Source: Lysobacterales bacterium
Lineage (GTDB): Bacteria; Pseudomonadota; Gammaproteobacteria; Xanthomonadales; SZUA-5
Assembly: GCA_022841325.1 (NCBI GenBank)
Contig: JALHRS010000001.1
Coordinates: 60,889 to 124,888 of the forward strand
Length of the DNA stretch: 64,000 nt
Reading direction: 5' to 3'
Shown: one piece after another, positions 7,142 to 45,345 of the stretch
Layout: each line of letters begins with the position of its first letter
How positions within the stretch are numbered: position 1 is the first letter of the stretch
Position numbers and translations under genes: made by a program
Notes under the pieces: generated by a model
What the model was told of the DNA's origin: nothing
What the model saw: the letters and a program-made list of their open reading frames with translations, nothing else
The model's database searches: none

Positions 7142-7306
7142 GACCAAAGCATAGCCGGGCGCCGGACCGGTTGTACCGGGTCCGCACCGCCTTGGGCATC
7201 GATTGTTTCGCCATCTGAACCATGGCCGGTGCACCCGCAAACCCAGTCGTGTTCGCTTTCGTCCCCGTGCTGCATTGATGGGTAAAGCCCTGTGCGGAGT
7301 TGCCTC

Positions 7307-9820
7307 GTGAATCGCTTCATCCTCTTGCTTGTCGCCATGGTCATCGGCCTGTCTGCGTTCAGCCCGGTCGCGGCACAAACCGAACGCTGCGTGCGCAACG
7401 TCGCCGAGTTCAACAGCGCCTGGATCGTTGCCGACGACGAACCGGTGCTGATCAAGATGGCGGTAGGGACCTACGATCTGACCGGAAGCGTGGTGGACGT
7501 GGACGGCGCCGCCTTCGAAAATGTCGATGACGACGTGACCATTCAAGGGGGCTACAACAGCAACTGCAGCGCGCGCTCTGGACTGCCGGGCGACACCGTA
7601 CTCACCTCCAGCTCGCGACTGCTGCTGCGCACCTACGCCGCGATCATCGAAGGCAGCGGATCACTGACCCTGGACCGACTGAAATTCAGCAACGTGCCGC
7701 GGGTGGAATTGCTGACAGAAGACGACACGACGCCCGATCAGCTGCTGACGCTGTCCAGGGTCTGGTTCGATGGCGTCGGTCAGACGGTGCTCAACGCGGC
7801 GGAGATGGAGCTGGACAATCTGCTCGTGGTGCGCGGCGGCAATTGTGCGCTGCAGATTGACAGGAACAGTTCCCCCGGACGCGTCTTGCTCGACCGCTTT
7901 GCGATGCGCCACAGCACCATCGCCAACAACAACGGTGCCGGGCTGTGCATCGGGCTTGCGAATCTTGCGGGCAATGACTGGAGCGCGACACTGACCAGCA
8001 ATGTGTTCTGGAACAACGCAGGCGACGATCTCGCCCTGCTCAATACCGGCGTCAACCAGATCCGCGCCACGCTGCTCAACAACACTTACCTCAACCTGCA
8101 GAGCAACCGCGGCCTGGCCAGCGCGCCGGTGGCCACCTCCAATGCCAACCCGCAGTTCGTCAACGCGCTGGCCGGCAACTGGCGCCTGTCGGGAGCCTCG
8201 CCGGCGATCAACAGCGGCCGCATTGCAGTTTCCTTGCTCAATGAGCTGGATTTCGATGGCGAGCCGCGCTGGTTTGGCGATGCCCCCGATCGCGGCGCTT
8301 TCGAGTCGGCAGTGGGCAGCACCGCCACGGTCTTGACCGTCACCAACACCAACGATGCTGGGTTAGGGTCCCTGCGCCAGGCGCTGCTCGACGCCAATGC
8401 CGCAGCCAACATCAACCGCATCCGTTTTGCGATTGGCAGCAGCTGCGGGCCGCGCATCATCAACCTGGCGAGCTTGCTGCCGGACATCGTGCATCCGGTG
8501 TCGATCGAGGGCTTCAGCCAACCCGGCGCGGTGCGCAATACCGCCGTGGCGGGCTACAACGGCACGCTGTGCATTGCCATCAACGGGCAGAACCAGATCA
8601 CCGGCGCTTTCGGTTTGAACGTCAACACCACCGCCTCGCCAGATGCCACGGTCAGCATCGAGGGCATCGCATTCGGCGGGCACTCCATCGCCGCGGTGCA
8701 GTTTGCCGGAGGCCGCAATCACCAGCTGCTGGGCGCGCAGATCGGCGGCACCATCGGCAGCACCAACCTGCTGCCCAGCAACATCGGCGTGCGCGTTGCC
8801 GGCAGCACCGAGGGCGTACGCATCGGCAGCAGCCAGGCCGGTGATCGCAATCGCATCGCCGACAGCTTGTCGACCGGCATCCTGGTGTCCGGGTCGGGCA
8901 GCACCCAGCCACGCCTGGCGATCATCGAAAACAACTACGTCGGCACCTTGAACGGCGGCGATGCGCGTGGCGGCAATGCCGGCGGCATCCTGCTGCGCGG
9001 GGTTGGCCACCTGGTTCGCGGCAACGTGGTGCACAGCAATGCCGGCAGCGGCATCGAAGTCGAAGGCAGCACCGCCAGCGCAGTGCGCATACTCAACAAC
9101 CGCATCGGCATTCCGGCGCTGTGTTTTGGCACCTGCCTCAATCGCGGCAACGGCGGTCACGGCGTGCTGCTGCGCAACGGCGCCGATCGCAACCCGGTGG
9201 AGGGCAACACCCTTGCCTACAACGCGCTCAATGCGGTGACGGTGATCAGCGCGCGCGAGAACAGCATCCGCCGCAACAGCAGTTTCGATCAAGGCGGCAT
9301 CGCCATCGATCTGGGTGGCGACGGCCGCAACTACACCAACAGCAACAACTCGCAACCGGCGCCCACGGGCGCGGGCAACGATGCACAGAACTACCCGAGC
9401 TTGAGCGATGCGCGTGGCAGCGTCGCGACGGGCATTGTCTCGGGCAGCCTGAGCAGCGCCAACGGCTGGTACCGCATCGACTTGTACGGCGCCCCCAGCT
9501 GCGTCAATGTGACGCTTGGCGGCATCCCGCTCGGACAGCACGGCGAAGCGCGCGACTGGCTGGGCTCGGGCGTGGTGCAGATCAGCAACGGCACTGCCAG
9601 CAGCGACGGCACGGCGAGCTTCAGCAACTTGCCCATCGCGAGGGAGGGCAATAGCAACTACTTCAGCAACAGCACGCGCATCATCGCCACTGCCACCCGC
9701 CTGTCAGGCAACCCGGCATCCGGCATTTCAATGAGCTTGGGTACCTCGGAGCTGTCGCGCTGCCGCACCTATTCGGTGGAAGTGATCGACGAGTTGTTTG
9801 CAAATGGTTTCGAGGGCTGA
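7307..9820 (+). CDS. Secreted parallel beta-helix protein with terminal NGFE motif
   Basis: About 837 residues. A signal peptide ends near VAAQ. The mature protein is rich in short beta-strand rungs of the pectin-lyase-like right-handed helix type, with many NNxxG turns. A second section starts with the CSLREA-like stretch TNDAGLGSLRQALLDANA around residue 350. The protein ends LFANGFEG, the terminal motif shared with six other exoproteins of this island. GTG 7307 is preferred because GGAG lies eight bases upstream; GTG 7292 is possible. No catalytic residues are recognisable. Likely a cell-surface or extracellular adhesin-like or polysaccharide-associated protein. Confidence 0.85.
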   Translation: MNRFILLLVAMVIGLSAFSPVAAQTERCVRNVAEFNSAWIVADDEPVLIKMAVGTYDLTGSVVDVDGAAFENVDDDVTIQGGYNSNCSARSGLPGDTVLTSSSRLLLRTYAAIIEGSGSLTLDRLKFSNVPRVELLTEDDTTPDQLLTLSRVWFDGVGQTVLNAAEMELDNLLVVRGGNCALQIDRNSSPGRVLLDRFAMRHSTIANNNGAGLCIGLANLAGNDWSATLTSNVFWNNAGDDLALLNTGVNQIRATLLNNTYLNLQSNRGLASAPVATSNANPQFVNALAGNWRLSGASPAINSGRIAVSLLNELDFDGEPRWFGDAPDRGAFESAVGSTATVLTVTNTNDAGLGSLRQALLDANAAANINRIRFAIGSSCGPRIINLASLLPDIVHPVSIEGFSQPGAVRNTAVAGYNGTLCIAINGQNQITGAFGLNVNTTASPDATVSIEGIAFGGHSIAAVQFAGGRNHQLLGAQIGGTIGSTNLLPSNIGVRVAGSTEGVRIGSSQAGDRNRIADSLSTGILVSGSGSTQPRLAIIENNYVGTLNGGDARGGNAGGILLRGVGHLVRGNVVHSNAGSGIEVEGSTASAVRILNNRIGIPALCFGTCLNRGNGGHGVLLRNGADRNPVEGNTLAYNALNAVTVISARENSIRRNSSFDQGGIAIDLGGDGRNYTNSNNSQPAPTGAGNDAQNYPSLSDARGSVATGIVSGSLSSANGWYRIDLYGAPSCVNVTLGGIPLGQHGEARDWLGSGVVQISNGTASSDGTASFSNLPIAREGNSNYFSNSTRIIATATRLSGNPASGISMSLGTSELSRCRTYSVEVIDELFANGFEG

Positions 9821-9871
9821 TCCGCCTTGCGATGCTCCGTCCGGGTGCCTTGCCAGCTGCCGCGCTGGCTG

Positions 9872-9948
9872 CAGGAGCGGACTCTGTCCGCGATCGCTGT
9901 TGATGAAATCCGCCGGATTTCCGGTCGCGGCTGAAGCCGCTCCCACAG
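9872..9948. repeat. Inverted pair of REP-like GGGAGCGG elements
   Basis: Two imperfect palindromes of the family CAGGAGCGG...CCGCGATCG are placed head-to-head at 9872-9896 and 9926-9948. They lie between convergent genes and can fold into a long hairpin. The same family recurs at 29010-29079, 45165-45189 and 61239-61312. Confidence 0.8.
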
Positions 9949-9951
9949 GGC

Positions 9952-11454: not shown

Positions 11455-11567
11455 GGGCGCACAGTTCCGGATCAGGACGGGGTTGGGGCAATTCTGACCG
11501 CAGGCTACCGGCGTGTCGATCAGCGGGTGCCCGCATGGTCCGCCTGCCCCTCGATCGCCAAACCCCA

Positions 11568-11600
11568 ATTTTGGGGTACACAGTCCGGTACCACCGCACC
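11568..11600. promoter_or_regulatory. Shared upstream element, copy 1 (GGGGTACACAGTCCGGTACC)
   Basis: A CCCCAATTTTGGGG palindrome runs into GGGGTACACAGTCCGGTACC. A close match, TGGGTACACAGCCCGGCACC, lies at 16829-16848 upstream of another island gene. This copy lies between the divergent TPR lipoprotein and the CSLREA-protein gene, where a promoter or operator is expected. Function is inferred from position and conservation only. Confidence 0.35.
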
Positions 11601-11647
11601 CAGCATTCCCTCACCGCGCAGTTCGCGCGCGCTGACGGATTGCCACG

Positions 11648-14014
11648 ATGTCACGGTCCCAGTTCTCTCCCCGATGCAAGCTGCCTCACTTGCGCGGCTT
11701 GCAGCAAATGTTCCTGCTCGCGGGGCTGCTGTGCTCGGCACCTATGCTCGCAGCCACCTTCGTCGTCGACACCACGGCCGACAACGCTTCGCTCAGCGCC
11801 TGCACAGCCGCCGCAGGCGATTGCTCATTGCGCGGGGCGATCACGGCAGCCAACGCCACCATCGAAACCGACGACATCGCCTTCAACATTCCGACTACTG
11901 AGCCAGGCTGCAATGCCGGCAGCGGCATCTGTCGGATTGAGGTCGGCTCGCCGCTGGCTGTCAGCCGTGGGCTGACCATCGATGGCTATACCCAACCCGG
12001 TGCCCAGCCGAACACCATTCCTGCGCCCGGCGCCATCAACGCCCAGTTGAAAATCGAGATCACCAGCGCCGGTTTCATCAACTTCGGCACGGCACTGTTC
12101 GACCTCACCAGCAGCAACGCCAGCCCATTCAACCTGCGCGGCCTGGCGATGGCCTTGCCGACCTCGGCCATCGTTTCCGGCGGCCTGCGCCACGACTACC
12201 GTGGCAACTGGTTCTGCGTCGATGCCAGCGGCCAGTCGCCGAACTTCAACCTGGCCTGCAGCGCCCTGGGCTTGAGCTTCTTCAATCGCACGATTCAGGT
12301 GGGCGGGCCAAACCCGGCCGACCGCAACGTGATCGCCGGCGGCGGTCGCGATCTGAGCGGGCAGCCGGGCGGTGGCACCAGCCGCCTGCGCGTCAACAGC
12401 ATCGTCAGCGAGCGCGGTTCGATCCTGCTGCAGGGCAATCTGATCGGCCTGGCACCGGACGGCATCACACCCCTGCCGATGCGCGATCCCTTCATCGTCC
12501 TGAGCGGCGACGACGGCTTCGACACCCCGAACATCCGCATTCTCGACAACCGCTTTGCCCGCGCCACGGGCAACTTCAGTGGCGGTTTTGGCGGTGCGCT
12601 GCAGTTCTCGGTCAGCCGGACCATGAATGAGACAGCCTTGATCCAGGGCAATGTCTTTGGCCTCGGCGTCGATGGCTCGGTGGTCGGCGTGGAAAAGGAC
12701 CACATCGAGATCTTCCTCGCCAACAGTTCACGTGTGCCGCGCGTGTTGATCGGCGGGCTGGGTGCTGGCCAGGGCAACACCTTCGCCGGCGCCAAGCGTC
12801 AGTCACTCACCAGCACTTCGCTGGGCTCGGCGGTGATTCTCCCCAGCGGGAATGTCAACACCAACATCGAATTCGTTGGCAACCGCATGCTCGGCAACCA
12901 GGGCATCGGTCTGGATTTTCCGACCGCGACGGCAGGCGGCGGCGTGGCGGTCGGGCGCACGCCCAACGACGGCGGAGACCCGGATGTCGGCGCCAACCTG
13001 CAGCAGAACCATCCCAGGATCAGCGCCTACAGCGTCAATGGCACTCAGTTCAGCCTCACTTACCGGGTCGATTCCGCTCCGGCCAACAGCGTCTATCCGC
13101 TGCGCGTGGATTTCTACAAGGCACTCGGTGACGAGGGCGAAGTGCTGCTCGACAGCGATGTCTACAGCTCGGTGAACGCGCAGCAGGACAAGGCGGTCAC
13201 GCTGAGCATTCCGGCCGGCGTGAGCCTGAGCAATGACGATGTCATCGTCGCCATCGCCACCGATGCCGAAGGTCGCAGCAGCGAGTTCAGCTTCGACACG
13301 CTCTCCCTGAGCGCGATCGATACGCCCGATCCGCATCCGGCCGGGCTGCCGTTCTCGGTGAATGTCACCGCACTGGCCACCAGCGGGCCGTTCAAGCCCA
13401 ACGGCATCGTCGATGTCTCGTTGAACACCTCACCGGCCATCACCTGCAGTATCACGCTGAGCCCGAGCGCCACCGCCAACACCAGTAGCGGCAGCTGCCA
13501 GCTGACCCCGACCCAGACTGGCAATCGCACGCTGACCATCAGCTATCGCACCCTGCAGGGTGCCTTCGGCGATGCCGCCGGCCAGGACGTGGTGATCACC
13601 CAGCCCCACGAGGTCACCGTCGCCGGCCCCGAGCAGATCGGATTCGGTCGCTGCCGCCAGAACGTCGTCGAGGGTGAGACCGCTCAGATCCGCGTCGAAC
13701 GCCCCAGTGGCGGCGTCGCCAATGTCAGCGTCGATTTCACCCACACGCCGGGCACAGCCACGCCGGGCGATGACTACACGGTGCCGGCCAACCAGTTGCT
13801 GCAATGGGCGCCCGGCGACATCGCCGCGAAAGTCATCGACGTGCCGATTGCCGGCGACGGCCTGCCCGAACCCACCGAGAACTTCCGCGTGAACCTCGGC
13901 AATGTCATGGGCGCCGCCGTGCTGCCCTTCGGCCAGCTCGACGTCGAGATCGTCGACGGCCAAAGCGATCAACGCTTCCGCAACGGCTTTGAAGGACCGG
14001 AGTGCCTGCCATGA
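11648..14014 (+). CDS. Secreted CSLREA/beta-helix protein with Calx-beta domain and NGFE tail
   Basis: 788 residues. After a signal peptide ending near PMLAA the mature start TFVVDTTADN leads to CSLREA-type sequence (CTAAAGDCSLRGAITAANA, residues 55-75), then long beta-helix-like rungs. Around residues 675-775 a Calx-beta-like domain is visible (VVEGETAQIRVERPSGGVAN; TPGDDYTVPAN). The C terminus is RFRNGFEGPECLP, placing the NGFE motif seven residues from the end. It overlaps the next gene by four bases (ATGA), so the two are translationally coupled. ATG 11708 is an alternative start with a shorter signal peptide. Confidence 0.85.
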   Translation: MSRSQFSPRCKLPHLRGLQQMFLLAGLLCSAPMLAATFVVDTTADNASLSACTAAAGDCSLRGAITAANATIETDDIAFNIPTTEPGCNAGSGICRIEVGSPLAVSRGLTIDGYTQPGAQPNTIPAPGAINAQLKIEITSAGFINFGTALFDLTSSNASPFNLRGLAMALPTSAIVSGGLRHDYRGNWFCVDASGQSPNFNLACSALGLSFFNRTIQVGGPNPADRNVIAGGGRDLSGQPGGGTSRLRVNSIVSERGSILLQGNLIGLAPDGITPLPMRDPFIVLSGDDGFDTPNIRILDNRFARATGNFSGGFGGALQFSVSRTMNETALIQGNVFGLGVDGSVVGVEKDHIEIFLANSSRVPRVLIGGLGAGQGNTFAGAKRQSLTSTSLGSAVILPSGNVNTNIEFVGNRMLGNQGIGLDFPTATAGGGVAVGRTPNDGGDPDVGANLQQNHPRISAYSVNGTQFSLTYRVDSAPANSVYPLRVDFYKALGDEGEVLLDSDVYSSVNAQQDKAVTLSIPAGVSLSNDDVIVAIATDAEGRSSEFSFDTLSLSAIDTPDPHPAGLPFSVNVTALATSGPFKPNGIVDVSLNTSPAITCSITLSPSATANTSSGSCQLTPTQTGNRTLTISYRTLQGAFGDAAGQDVVITQPHEVTVAGPEQIGFGRCRQNVVEGETAQIRVERPSGGVANVSVDFTHTPGTATPGDDYTVPANQLLQWAPGDIAAKVIDVPIAGDGLPEPTENFRVNLGNVMGAAVLPFGQLDVEIVDGQSDQRFRNGFEGPECLP

Positions 14015-16647
14015 AGACCAGACTGACGTTTCTCGCCACGCTGCTGGCGGCCTCGCTGGGAATACCCTGCCAGTTCGCCCTGGCCCAGACCAGCCAGGTC
14101 GACAGCCTGACCTTTGCGGATCCCAGCCGCCTTGGCGCGCAGGCAGCCGGTGCCGACAACAGCGACAACTGTTGCCATCCGCGCATCAGCGACGACGGGC
14201 GCCATGTGCTGTTCCTGAGTTCTGCCAGGAATCTGGTGGCCGGTGATCACAACAACAATGTCGACGTGTTCCTGCGTGACCGCACCCTCGGCACCACGCG
14301 CCGCGTCAATGTGCGCTCGGACGGCGCCCAGGGTCGCAGCGGCGATGCCGCCTCGGCAGTGACCGCCGCTATCTCCGCCAATGGCGACCTGGTGGTGTTT
14401 TCCTCGCGCCAGTTTGACCTGGTCGCGGGCGACACCAATCTCGCCAGCGATGTGTTTCTGCATCAGGTCTCCACCGGCATGACCACGCGCATCGTGATGG
14501 GCATCGGCGGGGCCGAGCCCAACGATGCCGTCCTCAATCCCAGCCTGTCGGGCGACGGCCGCTTTGTGGTGTTCGAATCCGGCGCCAACAATCTGGCCCC
14601 CAATCAATCCAATTTCACCCAGCACGTGTACCTGCTGGACCGCAACAGCGGGGTCATCGAACGCATCAGCGTCACCCCGGGTGGCAACCCTGCAGGCGGC
14701 GGCAGTGGCAATGCCACGGTCTCGGATGACGGTCGCTTCGTGGCTTTTGAATCCTCAGCCAACGACCTGGTCGCCACGCCGGGCAATGGCAGCGCCCAGC
14801 TCTACCTGCGCGATCGCCAGCTCGGTGTCACCACACGCCTGAGCCAGGTCGCGGGCGTGCCCGCCAATCTGCCGGTGCAGGGCAGCGTGATTGCCGGCAA
14901 CGGCTCGCGCGTGGCCTTCGAGACCGCCGCCACCAATCTCGATGCGGGCGATACGAACGGCGTCGAGGACATCTACGCGGTCAATGTCGCCAGCGGCGTG
15001 CTGACCCGGGTCAGCGTCGGCGCGGGCGGCGCGCAGACTTCTGAACGCAGCCAGCGCCCGTCGATCTCGCGCAACGGCCAGCGCATCGCCTTCCAGTCGC
15101 GCGGCGTGCTCGCGGCGGGTGGCAGCAGCGCCTTCGAGCAGATCTACCTGCGTGATCTGGATCTGCAGACCACCACGCTGGTGAGCGTGAACAACGCCGG
15201 CAACAACGGCAATCAGGACGAGGTCGATGCCAGCCTTTCCGGAAACGGCCAGGTGGTGGCTTTCAACGCCGCCAGCAACGATCTGGTCGGCGGCGACAGC
15301 AACAATCTCCGCGACCGCTTCGTGCGCGATCTGCTGGGCAACAGCACCGAACGCATCAGCCTGGCCGATGCCGCTGGTCCGTTCCCGTCACAGGCCAATG
15401 GCGATTCGACCACCTCGATCCGCGGCCAGCGCCAGCTGTCGGCCGATGCCCGATTTCTGGTGACGGCCACCAGCGCCACCAACCTCGGCTCACTCGGCCT
15501 GCAGGCCCCGACCACACAGATCGTGCGCATCGACCGCCAGGGCAATGTGGCCCGCCTGATCAGCGTCGACATCAACGGCAATCAGGCGCTGAGCAGTGCC
15601 TTCGATCCCGCCATCAGCAGCGATGGGCGTTTCCTGGTGTTCCGTTCGAACACCACCAATCTGGTGCCGGGCGACAGCAACAACGCCTCCGACATCTTCT
15701 GGCTGGACGCCAACGGCGGTGGTCTGGAGCGGGTCAACCTGGGCCCCGGCGGTGTGCAGGGACTGGGTGGCGCCACCACCACGCTGCCCAGCGTCTCCGA
15801 CGATGGCAACGCCATCGCCTTTGTCTCCAACCAGAACAATCTGGTGACGGGCGACACCAATGCCGCGCAGGACATCTTCGTGCGCGATCGCGTCACCAGC
15901 ACCACCACCCGGGTCAGCGTCGATTCCTCCGGCGCCCAGGCCAACGGCCTCAGCGATTTCGCGGTGATCTCGGCCAATGGTCGCTTCGTGGTGTACACCT
16001 CTCTGGCCAGCAACCTGATCGCCGGCGATGTCGGCGGTTTCCAGGACATCTTCCGGCATGATCGTCAGACCGGCCAGACCGTGCTGATCAGCCAGTCCAG
16101 TGGCGGCGTTCAGGGCAACGGCAACAGCTTCGTCTCGGCGATCTCGGCCGATGGCAACCGCATCGCCTTTTCTTCGGCGGCCACCAATCTGGTCAGCGGT
16201 GACAGCAACGCCCGCACCGACATCTTTGTCCGTGATGTGAATCAGGGCACCACCACGCTGGTGTCGGTCAGCAGTTCCGGCGAACTCGGCAACGGCACCT
16301 GCAGCGTGCCCTCGATCAGCGCCGATGGCCAGATCGTGAGCTTCCTCTCCGGTTCCAGCAATCTGGTCGCTGGCGACAGCAACAACCTCAACGATCTGTT
16401 CCGCCACGATCTCGGCAGTGGCCAGACCACGCGCATGAGCGTTGATCCGGATGGCCGTCAGGCGCGCGCGGGGCAAGCCACCGTCACTGCGGGGCAAGTC
16501 AGCCCGGATGGCAGCGTGGTCGCCGTGGAAACCAACGCCCAGGACTGGCAGCTCGGCACCGGCCTCAGCGGCGCCCGCGGCATCCTGCTGGCCACGCCGG
16601 CCACCGTACAGCTGCCGGACAACCTCTTTGCCAATGGCTTCGAGTGA
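14011..16647 (+). CDS. Secreted PD40/WD40-like beta-propeller protein with NGFE tail
   Basis: 878 residues from ATG 14011, preceded by a GAAGGACCGGAG ribosome-binding region. The signal peptide ends at FALAQ. The protein consists of about a dozen repeats of the PD40 type, each with an ISxDGRFVVFxS strand followed by NLVxGDxN and DIFVRD. This repeat is shared with TolB-like propellers. The last residues are LFANGFE, directly followed by the stop. No enzyme motif is seen; propellers of this kind usually bind proteins or polysaccharides. It is coupled to the preceding CSLREA gene. Confidence 0.88.
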   Translation: MKTRLTFLATLLAASLGIPCQFALAQTSQVDSLTFADPSRLGAQAAGADNSDNCCHPRISDDGRHVLFLSSARNLVAGDHNNNVDVFLRDRTLGTTRRVNVRSDGAQGRSGDAASAVTAAISANGDLVVFSSRQFDLVAGDTNLASDVFLHQVSTGMTTRIVMGIGGAEPNDAVLNPSLSGDGRFVVFESGANNLAPNQSNFTQHVYLLDRNSGVIERISVTPGGNPAGGGSGNATVSDDGRFVAFESSANDLVATPGNGSAQLYLRDRQLGVTTRLSQVAGVPANLPVQGSVIAGNGSRVAFETAATNLDAGDTNGVEDIYAVNVASGVLTRVSVGAGGAQTSERSQRPSISRNGQRIAFQSRGVLAAGGSSAFEQIYLRDLDLQTTTLVSVNNAGNNGNQDEVDASLSGNGQVVAFNAASNDLVGGDSNNLRDRFVRDLLGNSTERISLADAAGPFPSQANGDSTTSIRGQRQLSADARFLVTATSATNLGSLGLQAPTTQIVRIDRQGNVARLISVDINGNQALSSAFDPAISSDGRFLVFRSNTTNLVPGDSNNASDIFWLDANGGGLERVNLGPGGVQGLGGATTTLPSVSDDGNAIAFVSNQNNLVTGDTNAAQDIFVRDRVTSTTTRVSVDSSGAQANGLSDFAVISANGRFVVYTSLASNLIAGDVGGFQDIFRHDRQTGQTVLISQSSGGVQGNGNSFVSAISADGNRIAFSSAATNLVSGDSNARTDIFVRDVNQGTTTLVSVSSSGELGNGTCSVPSISADGQIVSFLSGSSNLVAGDSNNLNDLFRHDLGSGQTTRMSVDPDGRQARAGQATVTAGQVSPDGSVVAVETNAQDWQLGTGLSGARGILLATPATVQLPDNLFANGFE

Positions 16648-16992
16648 GTAGGCCGTGGTGATCCCCTGCGCTCCGCCGGGCTGAGCGGAGACCGGGAAAC
16701 GTGCACCGTGCGCGCCGAAGGCTGATGACGCGGGCCCCGCGCCAACCCAGGTCACGCGGGCCCGCAGGGCCTGCGTGGCAGGGTGCAGCCTCAAATCCCT
16801 GCTCCACCCCGCCGCCCCTACCCCAGTTCATGGGTACACAGCCCGGCACCTCGCCCGCCAAGATTGCGCCATCGCCGGGTCGCAATCCTCGGCACCGAAC
16901 GAGGACTCCGCAGAGTCCTTCTTGCGGATCCGGATTGTCTGGCCCAAGCGGCGTTCGCATGCCGATCTGACCGATCGCAGAGGAGACAGAGG
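16648..16992. other. 345-bp intergenic region with candidate regulatory sites
   Basis: No gene is evident. It contains a GC-rich inverted repeat around 16730-16765 that could stop transcription from the propeller gene. It also holds the second copy of the GGGTACACAG element at 16829-16848 and a palindrome GGACTC-CGCA-GAGTCC at 16903-16918, which lies about 75 bases before the next start codon and could be an operator. Confidence 0.4.
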
Positions 16993-19749
16993 GTGAAACT
17001 GCGCAGTGTTTTCGTGGTCCTGTTCGTTGCCTGGTGTCCGCTGCTCAGCGCCGGCACCAATCCCGACGCTCCGCTCGGCGCCAATCTCAATGCGGTCAAT
17101 GATTTCAGCGACGAGTTCCCCTTCGTCAACCTGATGAAATCGGCGCGCGACTGGATTCCGGGCAATGCCAACGGCTGTTTTGACTGCCGCAGCCCGGGCG
17201 GCAACCCGGTGTGTCTGGCACCCAACGCCTGCCCGGTCACGATCAATGTCGACGCTGATGGTTATCCCACCAGCCTGCTGCCGAATCAGGTGCTGACCAG
17301 CATCGTCCATGCCGGTGGCACGCCCGGGCGACTGGCGCCCGGCAACTACACGATCCGCTTCGCCGGTCAGGGCACGCTGCAGCTGCTGGGCATGAGCCAG
17401 GTCAGTCAGGGCAGCGGCGAGATCGTCGCCAATCTGGCCAGCAGCACCGGCAACAACATCGGTTTGCGGCTCACCGCCACCACGCCGGGCAATCCGCTGC
17501 GCGATGTGCAGATCCTGCCGCCGGGCGGGGTCTGCAGCAATGACGACCGCCGCAGCTGCGATGCCGGCAATCCCTGCGCCGGCGGCGGCAGCTGTCTGCT
17601 ATTCACCAGTCCCGGTGTGGCCGAGGCGCAGCTGTTTCAGCCACGCTTCCTGCGCAACTACGAACCCTTCCGGCTGCTGCGCTACATGGACTGGATGGAA
17701 ACCAACAGTTCGCCGGTGGTGAACTTCTCCGACTATCCGACGCCCAGCAGCGCCTTCTGGCATCGGGTGCCGCCGCAGATCCTGGCGGCGCTGGGCAATC
17801 GCCTGCGCAGCGATATCTGGATCAATCTGCCGCATCGGGCCACAGACGCTTTCATCGACAGCTTTGCCACGGTGCTTAGGGACAACTTCGCCACGGATCG
17901 GAAGATCTATCTGGAGTACAGCAACGAGAACTGGAACGGCATCTTCTCGCAGAATGTCGAGATCCCGCGCGCCTTCTGTCCCGGCTTTCCCGATATCGCC
18001 GCCGGTTGCCAGAACGACGGCATTCCCGGCAACGGCATCGCCTGCGAGCGCGATCCCAACACCTTCTCGCTGGGCGCGGCGCAGGCGCCGTGCTTCGAGG
18101 CCCTGGTCCGCGCCTGGGGCGATCGCTCGGTACAGATCTTCGATCGCTTCGCGACCGTCTTTGGCGCATCGGCCAGTACTCGATTGCTGCGGGTCATCGC
18201 CGCGCAGGCGGCCAATCCGGATCTGGGACGCCAGGTCATGGCCCGCAACGTCACCGGCCAGAGCTTCACGGTGGCCAGCCGCACCGATGTCTACGCCAGC
18301 GCACCCTATATCGGCACTGAATACTGCACGCCCGACAATGGCATCAACCCGGACAGCAGCCCTGCGGTCTACGCCAATGTCGACGCCTTTCTCGATCATT
18401 TTTCGACCCAGGGCATGACCCGCGCCGTGGGCTTCATGAGCGGCAGCCGGGCGATGGTCAACAGCAATTTCCCGGGGATGCGGCATGTCGCCTACGAAGG
18501 CGGACAGCATCTGGCCGGCATCGCCGGATTCACCTTCAACAACACCTGCAACACGATCTTCGATGCCGCCAATCGCAGCCCGCGCATGCAATCGATCTAC
18601 CAGACCTACTGGTCCAACTGGCGTCAGAACGGCGACGAGTTCGCGCATTTCTACACCACCGGCCGCTACGGGCCCTTCGGCCGCTGGGGCCTGCTGGAGT
18701 TCCAGGATCAGGATCTGCTGACCGCGCCAAAGTATCAGGCGCTGCTCGCTCACAGCGCCGCCTTCCCCTGTCACTGGCCCGCCTGCACCCAGAGCAGCGG
18801 CGGCGGCAACAGCAATCCCACACTGAGCTACACGCCGACCGCCGGCAGCGTGGCTACGCCAGGCAGCGGACCGAGCTTTCCCGGCGGCGCCGCCGGTACT
18901 GCCAACGCCTCGATCAGCATCAGTGCGACGGGCGCCAGCGGCACCGGCAGCACCAGCATCGGCAACTGCCAGATCAGTGGCAGCGGCGCCAGCGCCTTCG
19001 GCGCGGTGCAAATCACGCCGGCCGGTGGCGTATTCAACGTGGGCACGAGCAGCGGCAGCCTGGCGCTCAGCTGCCAGCGTGGCGCCTCGGCCGCGCAGGC
19101 CGTGCTCAGCTGCAGTGAAGCGCCACTCGGGGGCGCAGCCCTGACCCGCGCCTGGTCGCTGACCTGCCCGGCGGCCACCGTGGCCCCCGATGCCATCTTT
19201 GCCAACGGTTTCGAGGGCACCGCGCCGCCCACCTGCACGCCTGCCGATGCGCTGGCCGACGGCGGGCTGGAAGCCAGCAACCCGAACACCGGCGCCAGCA
19301 CCATCTGGACCTCGACCTCGACCAATTTCGGTACCGCCATCTGCCACAGCAATTTCTGTCCCAACGACGGCAACACTGCGCTGCCGCGCAGCGGCGCCTT
19401 CTGGGCCTGGTTCGGCGGTGTCAGCAGCGCGGAAACCTCCACGCTGAGTCAGAGCATCGTGCTCCCCAGCGGCGCCCCGCGGCATCTGAACTTCTTCCTG
19501 CGCCGCGGCCGTGTCACCGCGCCCTTCGATGCCGAGCTGCGGGTCAAGGTCGACGGCAGCACCGTGCGCACCTTCAATGAACCCAGCAGCGCCGAGGCCG
19601 ACTACATCGCCCGCACCGTCGATCTCAGCAGCTTCGCCAACGGCCAGATCCACGTCATCGAGTTCGAATACATCAATCCCGCCGGCAGTGGCACTTCCAA
19701 TTTCGTGGTCGACGATCTGAGCGTGGTTTGCGCGCCCTCAGGGAGCTGA
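16993..19749 (+). CDS. Secreted glycoside-hydrolase-like protein with internal NGFE motif and C-terminal beta domain
   Basis: 918 residues from GTG 16993 with AGGAGA ten bases upstream. The signal peptide ends near LLSAG. The first 590 residues look like a TIM-barrel enzyme; IYLEYSNENWNGIF near residue 305 resembles the strand-4 Asn-Glu acid/base site of clan GH-A glycosidases, and cysteines are frequent. A low-complexity Gly/Ser/Thr domain follows (about 600-725), then IFANGFEG near residue 735. After the motif a further 180-residue beta domain is attached (DDLSV at the end), of the kind that binds carbohydrate. Substrate is unknown; the enzyme assignment rests on a single motif. Confidence 0.7.
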   Translation: MKLRSVFVVLFVAWCPLLSAGTNPDAPLGANLNAVNDFSDEFPFVNLMKSARDWIPGNANGCFDCRSPGGNPVCLAPNACPVTINVDADGYPTSLLPNQVLTSIVHAGGTPGRLAPGNYTIRFAGQGTLQLLGMSQVSQGSGEIVANLASSTGNNIGLRLTATTPGNPLRDVQILPPGGVCSNDDRRSCDAGNPCAGGGSCLLFTSPGVAEAQLFQPRFLRNYEPFRLLRYMDWMETNSSPVVNFSDYPTPSSAFWHRVPPQILAALGNRLRSDIWINLPHRATDAFIDSFATVLRDNFATDRKIYLEYSNENWNGIFSQNVEIPRAFCPGFPDIAAGCQNDGIPGNGIACERDPNTFSLGAAQAPCFEALVRAWGDRSVQIFDRFATVFGASASTRLLRVIAAQAANPDLGRQVMARNVTGQSFTVASRTDVYASAPYIGTEYCTPDNGINPDSSPAVYANVDAFLDHFSTQGMTRAVGFMSGSRAMVNSNFPGMRHVAYEGGQHLAGIAGFTFNNTCNTIFDAANRSPRMQSIYQTYWSNWRQNGDEFAHFYTTGRYGPFGRWGLLEFQDQDLLTAPKYQALLAHSAAFPCHWPACTQSSGGGNSNPTLSYTPTAGSVATPGSGPSFPGGAAGTANASISISATGASGTGSTSIGNCQISGSGASAFGAVQITPAGGVFNVGTSSGSLALSCQRGASAAQAVLSCSEAPLGGAALTRAWSLTCPAATVAPDAIFANGFEGTAPPTCTPADALADGGLEASNPNTGASTIWTSTSTNFGTAICHSNFCPNDGNTALPRSGAFWAWFGGVSSAETSTLSQSIVLPSGAPRHLNFFLRRGRVTAPFDAELRVKVDGSTVRTFNEPSSAEADYIARTVDLSSFANGQIHVIEFEYINPAGSGTSNFVVDDLSVVCAPSGS

Positions 19750-19797
19750 TGCGATGGCCGATCCGATCACCTTGTGCAGCACCAGCGGCGACACCCC

Positions 19798-22026
19798 ATG
19801 ACTCGCAGCTTCAGCCTGATTCGAACTCTGGCCTTGAGCGCGGCCTTGCTGGGCGGATCAACGTTGCTGGCGCAGACCAATATTCCGGCGCTCAGTGCAC
19901 CCAACATCGATCCGGTGCAGGACGGCAGGGTCAATGTGCTGAAGCGCATGAACGATGGGCGCATCCTGGTCGGCGGCAGTTTCCAGCGCCTCGGTGCAGT
20001 CGCCGCGAACGGCTGCGGGCGACTGCTGCCCGACGGCTCCGCTGATGCCGCTTTCCAGTGCGCCCATCCCAATGTGGACGGATTCGCCCAGGACAGCAGT
20101 GGCCGCGTCTATGCGCTGCGCAGCATCATCGGCGCCGCCGTGCTGGTGCGCCTGCTGGCAGACGGCAGCCTCGATCCCAGCTTTGCTGCGGGTGGCTCGG
20201 ACGGCACCATCAGCAGCATGGTCATCGTCGATGATCTGATCTACGTCGGCGGCACTTTTGCGACCTTCAATGGCCAGCCACGGTCCCGACTGGCCAGACT
20301 CGACCTCAGCGGCGCACTGGATCCGGGCTGGACGCCCACGGCCGACGGCACCGTTTCCAGTCTGCTGGCGCCAGGCGACGGCTTTCTGTACCTCGCTGGT
20401 GGCTTCACCACGATCAACGGCAGCGGCCGCGACGGGCTGGCCCGATTGCTGCCGGCGACGGCTGTGCTCGATGCCTGGCACCCGCTGATCACCGGCACTG
20501 GCGGTGTCTTTCCGATCACGGCGATGGATACTGACGGCAACCATCTGTACCTGTCCGGCGCGTTCACGGCGGTTCAAGGTCTGCCGCGCGCACGCCTGGC
20601 CAAGTTGGGTCTGGATGCCGCTGCAACGGTGGATGCGGACTGGACGCCGCAGATTCTGAGCGCGCCAACCTCCTCGGGGCCGCGACTGGTCAGGGTCATC
20701 GACAGTCATGTCTATCTCGGAATAACCACCAGTGGCACCGGCATCACCGTGGGCAGCAATGGCGATACCGCAGCGGGTCGTTTGCTCAGAGTAGGCAGTG
20801 GCGGTACGGCGGCGCTGGACCTCAGCTTCAATCCCTTTGCCGATGTCAGCGGCACCGGCAGCAACGGTCCGGTCAGCCTCATCAGCGGCGATGGCGGCGG
20901 TCGCTTGTTTGTCGGAGGACAGATTTCGCAACTGTCGCTGGGGGCCATTCGTCTGGGTCTGGCGGCGCTCAACGCCGATGGCAGTGTAGACGCCCTGAGC
21001 GCGCTGACGGAAGCTCTGGTGCCGGGAAACGTGGCCAATCTGGCTTTCGATCCGGCCACCGGCAGCGCCTATGTGCAGGGCGATTTCCTCAAGGTCAACG
21101 GCGTTCCGCGCCAGGGCCTGATCCGACTGCTGGCCAGCGGCGCCGTCGATGGCGGATTCCGGCCAACGCCCGCCCGCTACAGCGCCGTGGCCTACGCCAA
21201 CAACGCCGTTTATGCCGCCGATGACGACGCCCGCTTGCTGCGCAAGCTGGATCGACTGACCGGCGATCCGGTGCCCGGGTACACGCCTGTTGCCTACAGC
21301 AACAGCATCTCGCAGATCCGCATCGAGGGTGAGCATGCCTATCTGCTGGGCAATTTCGTGCTCACTGGGATTAGCCCGCAGCTGACTCGCATCGCCCGTC
21401 TGGCTCTGGCCAGCGACAGCATCGATCAGGCTTTCCGCTTCACCCCCAATGCGGGAGCAGCGATCCTGTTCATGGCCCGCGATGCCGCCAGCAACAGCCT
21501 GTTCCTGACCGGAAACTTCACGACGCTGAATGGCGTCACGGTGAACCGCGTCGTCCGCATCGACAGCAATACCCTGGCCATCGACAGCAACTTCGCCCCG
21601 ACCGTGCCGGTCATCCCCAGTGCCATGCTCAGCGACGATCTGGGTGGCCTGTGGCTGCATGGTGTGTTCAGCACCATCAACGGCCAGGCCTGTCGTGGTC
21701 CGGCGCGCCTGCTCATCGCCACCCAGGGCAGTCTCGATCCGGCCTTTTCCTGCAACCGCGGCTTTCTCGGCGGCGGCAGCATGGCGCTGGCGCGCGACTC
21801 GGTTTACGTCAAGGGCATCAACACCATCAGCCGCTTCGTGCGCAGCGCCGGCGGCAGCGCCGATCCGGACTGGGTGATTGCCAATCCGCCGTCGGCGCTG
21901 GGTCTGACCGTGTTCGGCGATCGGCTGTTTGCCCATGGCGATTTCAGCAGCATCGCCGGCGCCAGCCGACAATCGCTGGCCGCCTTCCCGGTGGTCGAGT
22001 ACTTCGGCCGCAGCGGTTTTGAATAG
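19798..22026 (+). CDS. Secreted delta-60 repeat beta-propeller protein with SGFE tail
   Basis: About 742 residues. The signal peptide ends at TLLAQ. The body is built of delta-60-type (DUF5122) repeats: RILVGGSFQRLG, YVGGTFATFNGQPRSRLARL, YLAGGFTTINGSG, LFLTGNFTTLNGV. These fold as propeller blades. It ends YFGRSGFE, a variant of the island's terminal motif. ATG 19798 gives a clean signal peptide; GTG 19774 is an alternative. No catalytic motif is seen. Confidence 0.85.
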   Translation: MTRSFSLIRTLALSAALLGGSTLLAQTNIPALSAPNIDPVQDGRVNVLKRMNDGRILVGGSFQRLGAVAANGCGRLLPDGSADAAFQCAHPNVDGFAQDSSGRVYALRSIIGAAVLVRLLADGSLDPSFAAGGSDGTISSMVIVDDLIYVGGTFATFNGQPRSRLARLDLSGALDPGWTPTADGTVSSLLAPGDGFLYLAGGFTTINGSGRDGLARLLPATAVLDAWHPLITGTGGVFPITAMDTDGNHLYLSGAFTAVQGLPRARLAKLGLDAAATVDADWTPQILSAPTSSGPRLVRVIDSHVYLGITTSGTGITVGSNGDTAAGRLLRVGSGGTAALDLSFNPFADVSGTGSNGPVSLISGDGGGRLFVGGQISQLSLGAIRLGLAALNADGSVDALSALTEALVPGNVANLAFDPATGSAYVQGDFLKVNGVPRQGLIRLLASGAVDGGFRPTPARYSAVAYANNAVYAADDDARLLRKLDRLTGDPVPGYTPVAYSNSISQIRIEGEHAYLLGNFVLTGISPQLTRIARLALASDSIDQAFRFTPNAGAAILFMARDAASNSLFLTGNFTTLNGVTVNRVVRIDSNTLAIDSNFAPTVPVIPSAMLSDDLGGLWLHGVFSTINGQACRGPARLLIATQGSLDPAFSCNRGFLGGGSMALARDSVYVKGINTISRFVRSAGGSADPDWVIANPPSALGLTVFGDRLFAHGDFSSIAGASRQSLAAFPVVEYFGRSGFE

Positions 22027-22046
22027 CAACCATCAGGAGCCTGCTC

Positions 22047-23855: not shown

Positions 23856-23856
23856 G

Positions 23857-24132
23857 ATGACACGCGCCTTGCTGATCGCCGCAGCCGCTCTGTTGCCGCT
23901 ACCAACAGCAGCACTCGCTGATGACAACGGTGCCCGTTTTCAAATGCGCGAGGCAAAGGTCGAGACCACAGCGCCGGCCACCAGCAGTGATGGTCGCTAC
24001 GCCCTGCACGGCCGGGCCCAATGGTCATCGACCGAAGCCCCGATGGATGCTGCGCGTTTCAGCCTGAAATCCAGCAACGGCACCAGTTGCACAGCCACGG
24101 GTGACGCCGTGTTCGCCAACGGCTTTGAATGA
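23857..24132 (+). CDS. Small secreted protein ending in NGFE
   Basis: 91 residues. The signal peptide ends at AALAD. About 60 mature residues follow, then TATGDAVFANGFE at the extreme C terminus. It begins one base after the stop of the first S74 protein and 24 bases before the start of the second, so it is surely part of the same transcript. No family is recognised. It is the smallest protein here carrying the terminal motif and shows that the motif does not depend on a large repeat domain. The position suggests an accessory subunit for the fibre proteins. Confidence 0.8.
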   Translation: MTRALLIAAAALLPLPTAALADDNGARFQMREAKVETTAPATSSDGRYALHGRAQWSSTEAPMDAARFSLKSSNGTSCTATGDAVFANGFE

Positions 24133-24156
24133 GCCCGTCATCCGGAGTTTCTGACC

Positions 24157-26127
24157 ATGGGCAGACCTGCCCGATTGCTCGCGTGCGTCCTGTGCACGAC
24201 GTCACTGATGTTCGCGGCCCCGCCCGTCGCCGCTACCAGCCTGATCGTCAGCGGCCAGCTGGACGAATACGGCCGCCCGGCCAACGGTCGCTTCGATCTG
24301 CAGCTGATCCCGCATGGCGACGCTGTGGTGAATGCCCCGCTCGCGGGCGCACTGGTGCTGGAAGACGTCGACATTCGTGACGGTCGGTTCAGGGTGGAAA
24401 CCGAGTTCGGATTGAAGACCTTGTCCGGGCAAGCGATCTGGATCGCAGTCGCCGTGCGCGGCGGCCAGGAGAGCGCTGCCTTCACCCCGATTCCATCGCG
24501 ACTGCAGGCCCTCACCCCCAGCGTGATCGGCCAATGCTGGAGCACTGCGGGCGACAGCGGCAGCAATCCCGCGGTCAATTTCCTCGGCACCACCGATGCG
24601 CAGCCCTTTGAGATCCGCACACAGAACAGCCGTCATCTGCGCATCGAGCCCAGCGCCCAGCAGTTCAACGGATCACCGATCACAGCCAATGTCATCGCCG
24701 GCAGCAGCGAAAACCAGACGGATCCGGGCGTACGCGGCGCCACCATCGCCGGCGGCGGTGTGCCTTTCGGCGCCAGCGAGCCGGATTTTGACGGCGAGAC
24801 GCCGAATCTGGTTTTCGACCACTACGGCTCGATCGGTGGCGGCTACGGCAATCAGGCCGGCGACGGCGATGCCGACTTTACCAACGGTGCATTTGCCACG
24901 ATTGGCGGGGGCAAGAACAACCAGGCCTCTGCCCAGATCAGCACCATCGCGGGTGGTTTCCTCAACATCGCCGGCGGCGACGCTTCGGTAGTCGCTGGCG
25001 GCGTCGGCAATCGCGCCCTGGGCAACTCTGCGGCAGTGCTCGGCGGCGACTCCAATCGTGCCGTCGGCGAAAAGAGCAGTGTGGTCGGTGGCCTCAGCAA
25101 CACTGCGCTGGGTGGCTTTTCCACGGTCAGTTCGGGCGCCAGCAATTGCACCGGTGCACCGCAGTCCTGGGCCGGTGGCCTGCGAGTCAAGGTGCGCCCC
25201 GGCGCAAGCTCAGCCGAGGGCAGCTGTGCATCTGCGCCTGTCAGTGGTACTGCTGGCGGAGACGAAGGCACCTTCGCATGGGCTGACAGCAGCGGCACCG
25301 GTCGCTTCATATCGAATGGCCCGCAACGATTCCTGGTGCGCGCAAGCGGCGGCACGGTGGTCCAGGCGCAGATCGGAACCGAGGAGCAGGCGCGCAGCCC
25401 ACGGGGCTTCTTCAATCTTGTCCGCGGCAGTTCGGGCATCGCCCAACCGGCCAACCCGAGCGCCACCATTCTGGCCAGCCTGGAGAACGACAGCGACGGT
25501 TTCATCAGCGTGCTTGGTCCGGCCAACGTCAACCGCGGCCTGATTTTCGGCAGCCCCTCCAGCGCCACTCAGGGCGGCATGATCTATATCGGCGCGAGCG
25601 AGGTGTTGCAGTTCTTCGCCGGGGGTAGCGCCCGCATGACCCTGAATGGCACCGGGCAACTGGTGCTGCCGACACTGGGCAGCGCCGGCAGTACCGCCCT
25701 GTGCCGCAACGCCAGCAATCAGATCGCCAGCTGCTCTTCCAGTGGCCGCTACAAGCGTGACATCGAGGATCTGCATCTCGGTCTCGACGCGGTCTCCCAG
25801 CTCAGGCCCGTGGGCTATCGCTGGAAAGACGATGGCCATGCCGATATCGGCTTCGTCGCCGAAGAAGTCGCTGCGCTCGACGAGCGTCTGGTCACCCGCA
25901 ACGCGCAGGGCGAGGTGGAGGGCGTCAAGTACGACCGCCTCAGCGCCGTGCTGGCGGGTGCCGTGCAGGAACTGAGCGCTCGCGAGGCCTTGCTGCAGGC
26001 CGATCTGCAGACCATGCGCGCAGAGCTCGCCCGTCAGCGCGAGGACACTGCGGCACTACGCCGCGAGTTTTCCGAACTGACGCGGAAGTTCGGGGGCCGC
26101 ACGCACCGCCAGTCCGCGCCCGATTGA
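24157..26127 (+). CDS. Secreted YadA-head-like protein with S74 intramolecular chaperone (paralogue)
   Basis: 656 residues; the signal peptide ends near PPVAA. Same architecture as the protein at 22047: N-terminal beta domain, a longer YadA-head section (FATIGGGKNNQASAQ, ASVVAGGVGNRALGNS, SSVVGGLSNTALGG, about 245-330), a connecting domain, an S74 domain from about 525 (SGRYKRDIEDLHLGLDAV) with candidate S528/K533, and a C-terminal coiled coil. The two are clearly tandem duplicates that have diverged in the head and kept the chaperone nearly identical. Probably a trimeric extracellular fibre. It may continue the operon that starts upstream. Confidence 0.85.
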   Translation: MGRPARLLACVLCTTSLMFAAPPVAATSLIVSGQLDEYGRPANGRFDLQLIPHGDAVVNAPLAGALVLEDVDIRDGRFRVETEFGLKTLSGQAIWIAVAVRGGQESAAFTPIPSRLQALTPSVIGQCWSTAGDSGSNPAVNFLGTTDAQPFEIRTQNSRHLRIEPSAQQFNGSPITANVIAGSSENQTDPGVRGATIAGGGVPFGASEPDFDGETPNLVFDHYGSIGGGYGNQAGDGDADFTNGAFATIGGGKNNQASAQISTIAGGFLNIAGGDASVVAGGVGNRALGNSAAVLGGDSNRAVGEKSSVVGGLSNTALGGFSTVSSGASNCTGAPQSWAGGLRVKVRPGASSAEGSCASAPVSGTAGGDEGTFAWADSSGTGRFISNGPQRFLVRASGGTVVQAQIGTEEQARSPRGFFNLVRGSSGIAQPANPSATILASLENDSDGFISVLGPANVNRGLIFGSPSSATQGGMIYIGASEVLQFFAGGSARMTLNGTGQLVLPTLGSAGSTALCRNASNQIASCSSSGRYKRDIEDLHLGLDAVSQLRPVGYRWKDDGHADIGFVAEEVAALDERLVTRNAQGEVEGVKYDRLSAVLAGAVQELSAREALLQADLQTMRAELARQREDTAALRREFSELTRKFGGRTHRQSAPD

Positions 26128-26247
26128 AGCTCGCACGAGATTGCGTCGCATGCCGCTGATCGCATGCGGCCCTGTCAATCGCCATCACAGACTGCCCGCA
26201 TGGGCAGACAACGCGGGCTCCACGCCGCGGTTACCCGGAGAAAGCCG

Positions 26248-28053
26248 ATGCAGCCCCAGTGCTCACAGCAAGCCGAATTCTCGTCGATCCTCGCACCGAA
26301 AAGGTCGCGGTCAGCAACCGGACTCAGAGGCCCTGCGTCGCGCATGCACCGCCACCGTCTGATGGGCGCATGCCTGTTTGCCCTGGTGGCAGCGCAGGCC
26401 TCCGCCCAGACCACCACCACCTCCGGCCCGATCCCCTACACCTCGCCAGCCTCGCGTCCCGCCAGTTTCATCAACAGGCCGGTGGTGATCGAGGACTTCG
26501 AGGACAGCGTCATCGACCCACGCATCAATATCTTCCTCGGCGGCACCATCCTCGGACCGCTAGGCCAAAGCGATTCGGTGGATGGCGATGATGGCTTCAT
26601 TGATGGCTCGGGCAACCAGGGCCACTGCCTGCTGCGCAATTCGGCCGCCATCGATGTCGTATTCACGACCAACCCCAGGGTCGCCGGCCTGGTCTGGACC
26701 GACGGCGGCCAGAACAGTCTGGTGACGGTGACGGCCTTCGCGCCCGACGGCACCCAACTCGCCAGCACCGGCCCGCATGCGCTGGGTGACGGCAACAGTA
26801 CCGGCAACACCGCCGAGGATCGCTATTTCGGCTTTCGCAACGACGGCGGCATTGGCCGTATCCGCATGCAAACCGACAGCGCCAGCTTCGAGATCGACCA
26901 CATCCAGTTCAGCAATACGGTGGAGCCGCTGATCATGGGCACCATGGACGACGGCAATCGGGCGATGTTCCTGGCGGCGCCCGATGCCGAACTGCCCGGG
27001 ACCCGGCAGCAGGTCTTCACCCTGCCCTCGAACAATCGCCCCCATGGCGTGGCCTTTCTGGGCACGCGGGCGCTGTATCAGGACTTCATCACGCCGCGCA
27101 TCTTCGTGGTCGATCCCGGCTTCCCCACGCAGGTTCCACTGATCTCGCTGACCGGACGCAGCCGCGGCAACGGCAGCCTGGCGGTCGATCCGACCCAGCG
27201 CTATGCACTGAGCATCGGCGAGAGCGCCGATCTGAATCCGGTCGGTGAGGCCGTGGTCGTTGATTTCGGCCAGCAGCCGCCTCAGGTCAGTCCCATTGCC
27301 GGCGGCCTTCGGGTGCTGAGCTTTGTGTCTGAAGCCATCGATTTCGCGCCGGACGGCCGCGCCTTCGTCTGCCACACCGAGGGCGTCAGCGTGCTTCGCC
27401 CACCCTATCAGTCCGTCGATTTCACCATGCCCTTTCCGAGCGTGGTGCAATCGCCGTCCATGTGCAGGCTGAGCCGCGATGGCAGCCGGCTGTTCGTCAC
27501 CCGTGTGCTCAGCGAAACCGTCGCCCTGCCCAATGGCGTGCGCACCACCACGGCGCCCTACTCGGCGGCCAGCAGCTTCACGCTGATGCCGGCGCCGCCG
27601 ACGGTGCAGGGACTGGGGCCGATGGCAGTCTCGCCCGATGGCCAGGCGCTGATCGTCGGTCAGCAATTCCTGTTTCCACCCGACAACGGTACCCGAGCCC
27701 GCGCCTTCCTGCTGCGCGCGCCCTTTGACGGTCAAACCAGCTATCAGGAACTGACTCTGCCGGCGAGCTCTACCGGGTTGCAATGCACCGACGACGGGGT
27801 GCCGATCGACTGCCCCGGCTTCGAGGCCATCGAAGTCAGTCGCGACGGCACGCTGGCGGTGCTCAGCGGCAACAGCGGCGCCGCGGTGAGCAGCAGGGCA
27901 GACCGCGTGCCCGCAGTGTTCATCCGCCACCCCTTCAACGATCAGGCGCGTTCCTCGGTGGCCGTGCCCATCGGACCCGCCGGCTTCGAGGGGCGCGGCG
28001 CCGGCGGCATCGATTTTCAGCCGGACCGGATGTACACCAGCGGCTTTGAATGA
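26248..28053 (+). CDS. Secreted beta-propeller-like protein with SGFE tail
   Basis: About 601 residues. The hydrophobic signal segment (MGACLFALVAAQASAQ) lies well inside the frame. ATG 26248 has the best ribosome binding site (GGAGA seven bases upstream) but gives a long basic leader; ATG 26344 gives a conventional signal peptide. The mature protein starts with a roughly 200-residue beta domain, then segments with DGRAFVCHTEGVSVL and MAVSPDGQALIVGQQ patterns typical of propeller blades. It ends RMYTSGFE. No catalytic motif is recognised. It is the last member of the exoprotein island. Confidence 0.8.
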   Translation: MQPQCSQQAEFSSILAPKRSRSATGLRGPASRMHRHRLMGACLFALVAAQASAQTTTTSGPIPYTSPASRPASFINRPVVIEDFEDSVIDPRINIFLGGTILGPLGQSDSVDGDDGFIDGSGNQGHCLLRNSAAIDVVFTTNPRVAGLVWTDGGQNSLVTVTAFAPDGTQLASTGPHALGDGNSTGNTAEDRYFGFRNDGGIGRIRMQTDSASFEIDHIQFSNTVEPLIMGTMDDGNRAMFLAAPDAELPGTRQQVFTLPSNNRPHGVAFLGTRALYQDFITPRIFVVDPGFPTQVPLISLTGRSRGNGSLAVDPTQRYALSIGESADLNPVGEAVVVDFGQQPPQVSPIAGGLRVLSFVSEAIDFAPDGRAFVCHTEGVSVLRPPYQSVDFTMPFPSVVQSPSMCRLSRDGSRLFVTRVLSETVALPNGVRTTTAPYSAASSFTLMPAPPTVQGLGPMAVSPDGQALIVGQQFLFPPDNGTRARAFLLRAPFDGQTSYQELTLPASSTGLQCTDDGVPIDCPGFEAIEVSRDGTLAVLSGNSGAAVSSRADRVPAVFIRHPFNDQARSSVAVPIGPAGFEGRGAGGIDFQPDRMYTSGFE

Positions 28054-45155: not shown

Positions 45156-45164
45156 CCTCATCCC

Positions 45165-45189
45165 GGTGGGAGCGGATTCATCCGCGACC
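45165..45189. repeat. Single REP-like GGGAGCGG element
   Basis: GGTGGGAGCGGATTCATCCG, then CGACC, starts ten bases after the engB stop. It belongs to the same palindrome family as 9872, 29010 and 61239, here unpaired. Confidence 0.75.
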
Positions 45190-45317
45190 GGTCCCGCCGC
45201 GGATTCCAGGAAAGAGCAGGACACGAAGGACGCAAAGGAAAAGCAGCAAGAAAAGCAGTGACGATCTTTGATCGGCGTTCGTTCGCGTGGGCCGTGAGGC
45301 GGTTCCTGTGAACCCCC

Positions 45318-45344
45318 ATGAACCCATGTCGTAAGTTATTGATT
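45318..45344 (+). repeat. 27-bp dispersed repeat, copy 2
   Basis: ATGAACCCATGTCGTAAGTT followed by ATTGATT. It directly precedes the TCATTGCGAGGAGCGCAGCG palindrome. Confidence 0.65.
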
Positions 45345-45345
45345 C

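Follow-up and report, generated by a model that had tools for sequence, protein, structure and literature searches.

A short tail on unrelated exported proteins of Lysobacterales and its co-occurrence with a second type II secretion system

Exported proteins of a Lysobacterales bacterium (assembly GCA_022841325.1) share a short tail (the tag), with the consensus [DE]-x-[ILV]-F-x-[ND]-G-F-E when positions left free in the search are included, which was first noticed in a 64,000-nucleotide stretch of contig JALHRS010000001.1 (positions 60,889 to 124,888; hereafter the window). The tail is real and reaches far outside the window, and across the order it co-occurs with one type II secretion system (T2SS), named T2SS-B here and characterized by a distinct GspD, a distinct GspG and a GspC with a C-terminal PDZ domain. 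We moderately favor a role of this consensus, at the end of an exported protein, as a short linear recruitment signal for T2SS-B. The initial annotation had read the motif as possibly an undescribed tag for sorting, anchoring or processing; sorting is supported by the enrichment of the motif, by signal peptides, by the unrelated folds of its carriers and by its co-occurrence with one secretion system, sortase-type cleavage is disfavored, and a processing or anchoring role after export may be reconciled with the data. Literature searches on the motif returned no description of the tag.

Abundance and anatomy of the tag

Chance occurrence was gauged with the reversed pattern, searched in the same genome or genomes. 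Across the whole 6.12-Mb genome that holds the window, NGFE followed by a stop codon was found 17 times (control, 0), F-x-[ND]-G-F-E followed by a stop codon 37 times (control, 0), and [FY]xxGFE at any position 113 times (control, 12). The initial annotation would have fallen had the motif been no more frequent at protein ends than expected by chance, and these counts place it far above chance. Among 369 genomes of the class, the stop-codon pattern stays at background level (mostly no match, at times 1 in a genome) in all but two, namely the genome of the window and one other of the same order. Within the order (250 genomes), many families show up to 56 matches to this pattern per genome and other families almost none; without the stop codon there are 10–113 matches in 80 genomes and 0–9 in the rest, with 0–9 for the control. 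Examples (tag matches versus control) include Dokdonella sp. BIN16 (54 versus 0), Dokdonella fugitiva (32 versus 2), Tahibacter soli (81 versus 2), a Rudaea metagenome-assembled genome (MAG) (41 versus 0), a Chiayiivirga MAG (52 versus 0) and Lysobacter sp. CAU 1642 (21 versus 1).

The anatomy of the tag was read from genes called in 80 loci plus the window, representing six genomes and 116 tagged proteins. The protein ends exactly in GFE in 94 of the 116 and continues for 1–6 further residues in the other 22, while 1–9 residues are added after GFE in families f189 and f191; a longer tag, GFESGDxSAW, was not seen, the additions in these two families being no more than such extra residues. Two residues that the search had left free are constrained, with L, I, V or M at position -4 in 98% and D or E at position -6 in 53% of tagged proteins. 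About ten internal copies occur, mostly between domains. In one orthologous pair with an internal tag (L141/L095) the tag is identical at 5/7 positions and the linker is about as similar (5/8), so that this pair alone gives no proof of selection. Variant ends (NSFE, DSFE, DGFD, GGYE, DGFG) also occur. Neighbors of tagged genes at L098, L105, L112 and L121 end in GGGYE, ADGFGDAISIVY, SDSFED and TNSFE; because of such neighbors, the motif definition undercounts tags. In two further proteins (L080:11021-12658 and L128:7681-9669) the tag or a variant (PVFADGFE, DDVFSNSFE) stands directly behind the signal peptide.

By a crude rule, signal-peptide-like starts were found in 74 of 108 tagged versus 284 of 885 untagged proteins, and Tat-type (twin-arginine translocation) starts occur alongside Sec-type starts among the tagged proteins (L119, L080), consistent with T2SS substrates. 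With tails removed, BLAST links sort the 116 tagged proteins into 48 groups, and the 25 from the genome of the window into 24; synonymous codons are freely mixed among tag copies. Descent from one gene, which the initial annotation had named as a possible refutation, is ruled out by this grouping, and its claim of unrelated folds is upheld. The same tail thus ends many unrelated exported proteins of one genome, as expected of a sorting signal that is independent of homology.

Ten isolated tails had no NCBIfam match at E<=10, although HMMER filters limit sensitivity for sequences this short, and the whole window proteins matched no curated CTERM model. A signal of the PEP-CTERM, GlyGly-CTERM or MYXO-CTERM type was rejected: as the initial annotation had stated, no transmembrane helix and basic cluster follow the motif, and proteins stop 0–9 residues after GFE. 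An Asn-specific endopeptidase or ligase was also ruled out, since D and S replace N before Gly. A reader that strictly requires a free C terminus (a carboxylate clamp) is weakened by the extra residues and internal copies; these, together with the N-terminal copies, also speak against a strict signal for sortase-type cleavage at the C terminus.

The second type II secretion system

T2SS was tested as the machine because both Sec and Tat proteins bear the tag. All 16 tag-positive genomes first tested (nine families) encode two GspD secretins above the TIGR02517 cut-off. Most tag-negative genomes first tested encode a single one, none was found in two of them, and four carry a pair, the second being Xcs-like in G425 and of the tag-associated type in G376, G393 and G408. 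The tag-associated secretin (GspD-B) forms a single clade (100/100 support). On its profile, no held-out member scores below 698 bits (698–907), versus at most 249 for the other GspD type, giving full separation.

The GspD-B locus lies between rho/trx/rhlB and ftsE/ftsX and contains gspC-gspD-gspE-gspF; of the sixteen loci read, about half yielded calls for all four (apart from gspC, D and E, the genes were named by visual inspection of their sequences). In several genomes components C, D, E and F share this locus, with G at a separate locus; in the genome of the window the locus is on contig C35 (gspD at 45155-47122). Components expected of a PDZ-type T2SS were found, namely GspC with T2SSC and PDZ regions, GspD with N0 and secretin domains, and GspE, with PF11356, PF21305, PF00263 and PF00437 over threshold; the PDZ models score just below gathering in the genome of the window and above it in relatives. 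A T2SSC region and a C-terminal PDZ domain are present in all 15 aligned GspC-B sequences. The predicted GspC-B model has a mean predicted local distance difference test score (pLDDT) of 72.5 (about 82–95 for the PDZ part), and its best matches among solved folds are the PDZ domains of EpsC and PulC and the GspC HR domain.

All 250 genomes were also scanned with the GspD-B profile, with tag-positive defined as at least 10 tag matches. Uncorrected, 72 genomes carry both tags and GspD-B, 8 carry tags alone, 33 GspD-B alone and 137 neither; among the 8 with tags alone, GspD-B fragments lie at contig edges in three, completeness is 81–90% in another three, and two (G427 and G458) are true exceptions. 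After correction for contig-edge fragments, GspD-B is present in 75 and absent from 5 tag-positive genomes, versus 34 and 136 for tag-negative genomes (Fisher p=1e-30). At the genus level, tag and GspD-B agree in 74 of 81 genera, an agreement matched by none of 100,000 within-family permutations. Almost every genus of families f2 and f3 lacks both, and the few that are tagged (2/18 and 4/22) retain GspD-B. The second GspG, at its other locus, is present in 16/16 GspD-B genomes versus 0/9 others, whereas the ordinary T2SS, used as a control, is found in tagged and untagged genomes alike. The tag therefore tracks one dedicated machine, represented by GspD-B and GspG-B, with the exceptions named below. 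Of the kinds of co-occurring gene that the initial annotation proposed to look for, these results indicate a secretion machine, a T2SS whose GspC is of the PDZ type, instead of a protease or acyltransferase. No shared enzyme gene was found near tags among 1132 clustered neighboring genes at about 80 tagged loci.

A third, Xcs-like GspD, scoring 430–552 bits on the B profile, occurs in f2 genomes without tags (G425, G442, G516, G536, G570, G578, G580, G592, G596, G598, G602 and G612).

Tagged proteins of the window and their neighbors

Nine reading frames were translated (window 7292-28053) and assigned to families with Pfam and NCBIfam (Table 1). The motif reported for seven of the nine exoproteins was recovered in all seven translations; it lies at or within 6 residues of the C terminus in six and is internal in one, so that its description as C-terminal holds for most copies, but not strictly (0–6 extra residues here, and internal copies). 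In the glycosidase-like protein, 177 residues remain after the internal copy. Signal-peptide-like N termini are present in 9/9, as claimed, in three of them only if internal starts (~16993, ~19798, ~26344) are taken instead of the first start in frame. The families differ (beta-helix/choice-of-anchor Q, CSLREA with Calx-beta, PD40 propeller, delta-60/DUF5122 propeller), and no Pfam or NCBIfam family was found for three of the seven tagged proteins. The two proteins without the motif do end in Peptidase_S74 domains.

Table 1. Exported proteins of the window and their tags (positions within the window; C-terminal ends run to the stop codon).
Protein	Position (strand)	Tag	C-terminal end	Remark
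Beta-helix / choice-of-anchor Q protein	7292-9820 (+)	FANGFE +G, 9797..9814	LFANGFEG	
CSLREA / Calx-beta protein	11648-14014 (+)	FRNGFE +GPECLP, 13976..13993	FRNGFEGPECLP	
PD40 beta-propeller protein	14002-16647 (+)	FANGFE, 16627..16644	LFANGFE	Strictly terminal
Glycosidase-like protein	~16993-19749 (+)	FANGFE, 19198..19215		Internal (IFANGFEG), at boundary before C-terminal domain
Delta-60 / DUF5122 propeller	~19798-22026 (+)	YFGRSGFE (variant), 22000..22023		Strictly terminal
Untagged exported protein	22047-23855 (+)			C-terminal Peptidase_S74 chaperone domain; same operon as small tagged protein
91-residue exported protein	23857-24132 (+)	FANGFE, 24112..24129	VFANGFE	Strictly terminal; between two S74 genes
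Second untagged S74 protein	24157-26127 (+)			Same operon as 22047-23855 protein
Propeller-like protein	~26344-28053 (+)	YTSGFE (variant), 28033..28050	MYTSGFE	Strictly terminal

A two-gene unit recurs at four sites (window 22047-26127, L145:9635-11711, L078:1095-3390 and L113:8345-10212), in which a small tagged exported protein (64–101 residues) lies beside a larger untagged protein of the YQGEL/S74 type; the small protein might ferry its untagged partner to the secretion machine. Ser/Thr kinases (16) and sigma factors of the extracytoplasmic function (ECF) type (11) turn up repeatedly close to tagged genes, each group in four genomes (loci L069-L148, window 61394), and are perhaps regulators of exoprotein genes.

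Proposed recognition by T2SS-B, alternatives and significance

In the mechanism that we favor, tagged proteins would cross the inner membrane via Sec or Tat and fold in the periplasm with the tail displayed on a linker, T2SS-B would recognize the tail, most plausibly via the peptide-binding PDZ domain of GspC-B, and the recruited protein would exit through GspD-B. C-terminal peptides are the usual ligands of PDZ domains, internal turns being bound less frequently. The Asn/Asp-Gly pair of the tag probably makes a tight turn, and internal copies at domain boundaries could therefore work too. PDZ dependence has been published for some T2SS substrates, the EpsC PDZ domain being required for VesB secretion (PMC12369372), and a part of the OutC PDZ domain in specificity is indicated by a title cited in PMC7949064; no linear universal T2SS signal is known according to these two papers. 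The fuller claim, of a linear and portable T2SS signal in which a tail of 7–9 residues is read by the GspC PDZ domain on up to about 100 proteins per genome across Lysobacterales, stands in our estimate at even chances.

Several observations weigh against recruitment by T2SS-B. Classical PDZ recognition needs a free carboxylate, whereas the tag tolerates extra residues and internal copies, and the two S74 proteins of the window lack it. GspD-B was not found in G427 and G458 (f189; 97–98% complete), which have 15 and 11 tag matches and may reflect recent loss or another exporter. Conversely, genus g283 (f191; including G376, G393, G401, G408 and G422), which accounts for 23 of the genomes with GspD-B only, keeps T2SS-B with almost no canonical tags (0–6 matches) and perhaps relies on variant tags or has only a small number of substrates; G607 and G579 also have T2SS-B and almost no tags. 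GspD-B-like systems outside the order (Thiodiazotropha, Woeseiaceae, Ectothiorhodospira, Granulosicoccus) are mostly without tags; the machine therefore needs no tag, and the tag would be either a Lysobacterales invention on a wider system or part of a later step. It is also possible that another gene with the same pattern of loss would fit, the gene profiling across genomes having covered T2SS genes only.

Such a later step, in which the tag acts after export by T2SS-B, in surface anchoring or in cutting or modification there by an enzyme or receptor, would account for T2SS-B without tags while tags nearly always accompany T2SS-B. Several tagged families are of the choice-of-anchor or CSLREA type, NCBIfam families that bear anchoring signals elsewhere, and the GlyGly-CTERM proteins of Vibrio, exported by T2SS and then processed by rhombosortase, offer a precedent. 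We nevertheless judge it rather unlikely, as no enzyme gene recurs beside tagged genes, copies inside the protein or near its N terminus, like the varying number of extra residues, are ill-suited to C-terminal cleavage or transfer, and the acceptance of N, D and S before Gly excludes a strictly Asn-specific ligase or protease. A reader outside the T2SS (an outer-membrane translocon, a periplasmic chaperone or a docking receptor) whose gene was lost together with T2SS-B would explain tags in G427 and G458 and fits the T2SS-only scope of the profiling, but seems improbable to us, because the agreement with T2SS-B persists within families and at two separate loci (gspD and gspG), and T2SS is the known route of folded Sec and Tat exoproteins. 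Similar strings do occur at domain starts and boundaries, in line with a structural or inherited element, such as a remnant of an FxDGFE strand that starts extracellular beta-sandwich domains, spread by gene-end fusion; that unrelated families strictly end in the tail, with mixed codons, and that lineages retain or lose the tail together with T2SS-B make this origin very doubtful. The counts against the reversed pattern and the conservation of unselected flanking positions reduce chance or a compositional artifact to a negligible probability.

Known systems offer partial likenesses. The C-terminal domains of the type IX secretion system (T9SS) also direct folded proteins across the outer membrane. 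They are whole domains of 70–100 residues in Bacteroidota, whereas the tag has 7–9 residues and occurs in Gammaproteobacteria alongside T2SS, in agreement with the initial annotation that it is far shorter; the window proteins had no match to a T9SS sorting domain. By analogy only, the periplasmic PDZ domain of DegS reads a short aromatic C-terminal peptide of outer-membrane proteins (YxF), but DegS senses unfolded porins and triggers a stress response, and the peptide is no secretion signal. GlyGly-CTERM, read by rhombosortase (PMC3237569), is likewise one C-terminal tag on many unrelated exoproteins of T2SS-bearing bacteria, although it includes a transmembrane helix with a basic end and undergoes cleavage by a rhomboid protease, whereas the tag here has neither helix nor basic end and can be internal. 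Closest in machinery are the PDZ-dependent substrates of EpsC (VesB of Vibrio) and OutC (Dickeya), for which PMC12369372 and PMC7949064 describe a GspC whose C-terminal PDZ domain selects some substrates, these being Sec or Tat substrates that fold before export; the signal there is described as structural (an immunoglobulin-like domain, loops), whereas here it would be a short linear tail on dozens of unrelated proteins.

The choice of substrates by T2SS is a long-standing open question, which a tail that tracks one PDZ-type T2SS makes testable by tail deletions and fusions. If true, recruitment through the tag would overturn the view of T2SS signals as solely structural and could yield a portable secretion tag, and the exoproteome of many Lysobacterales would be predictable from sequence alone.

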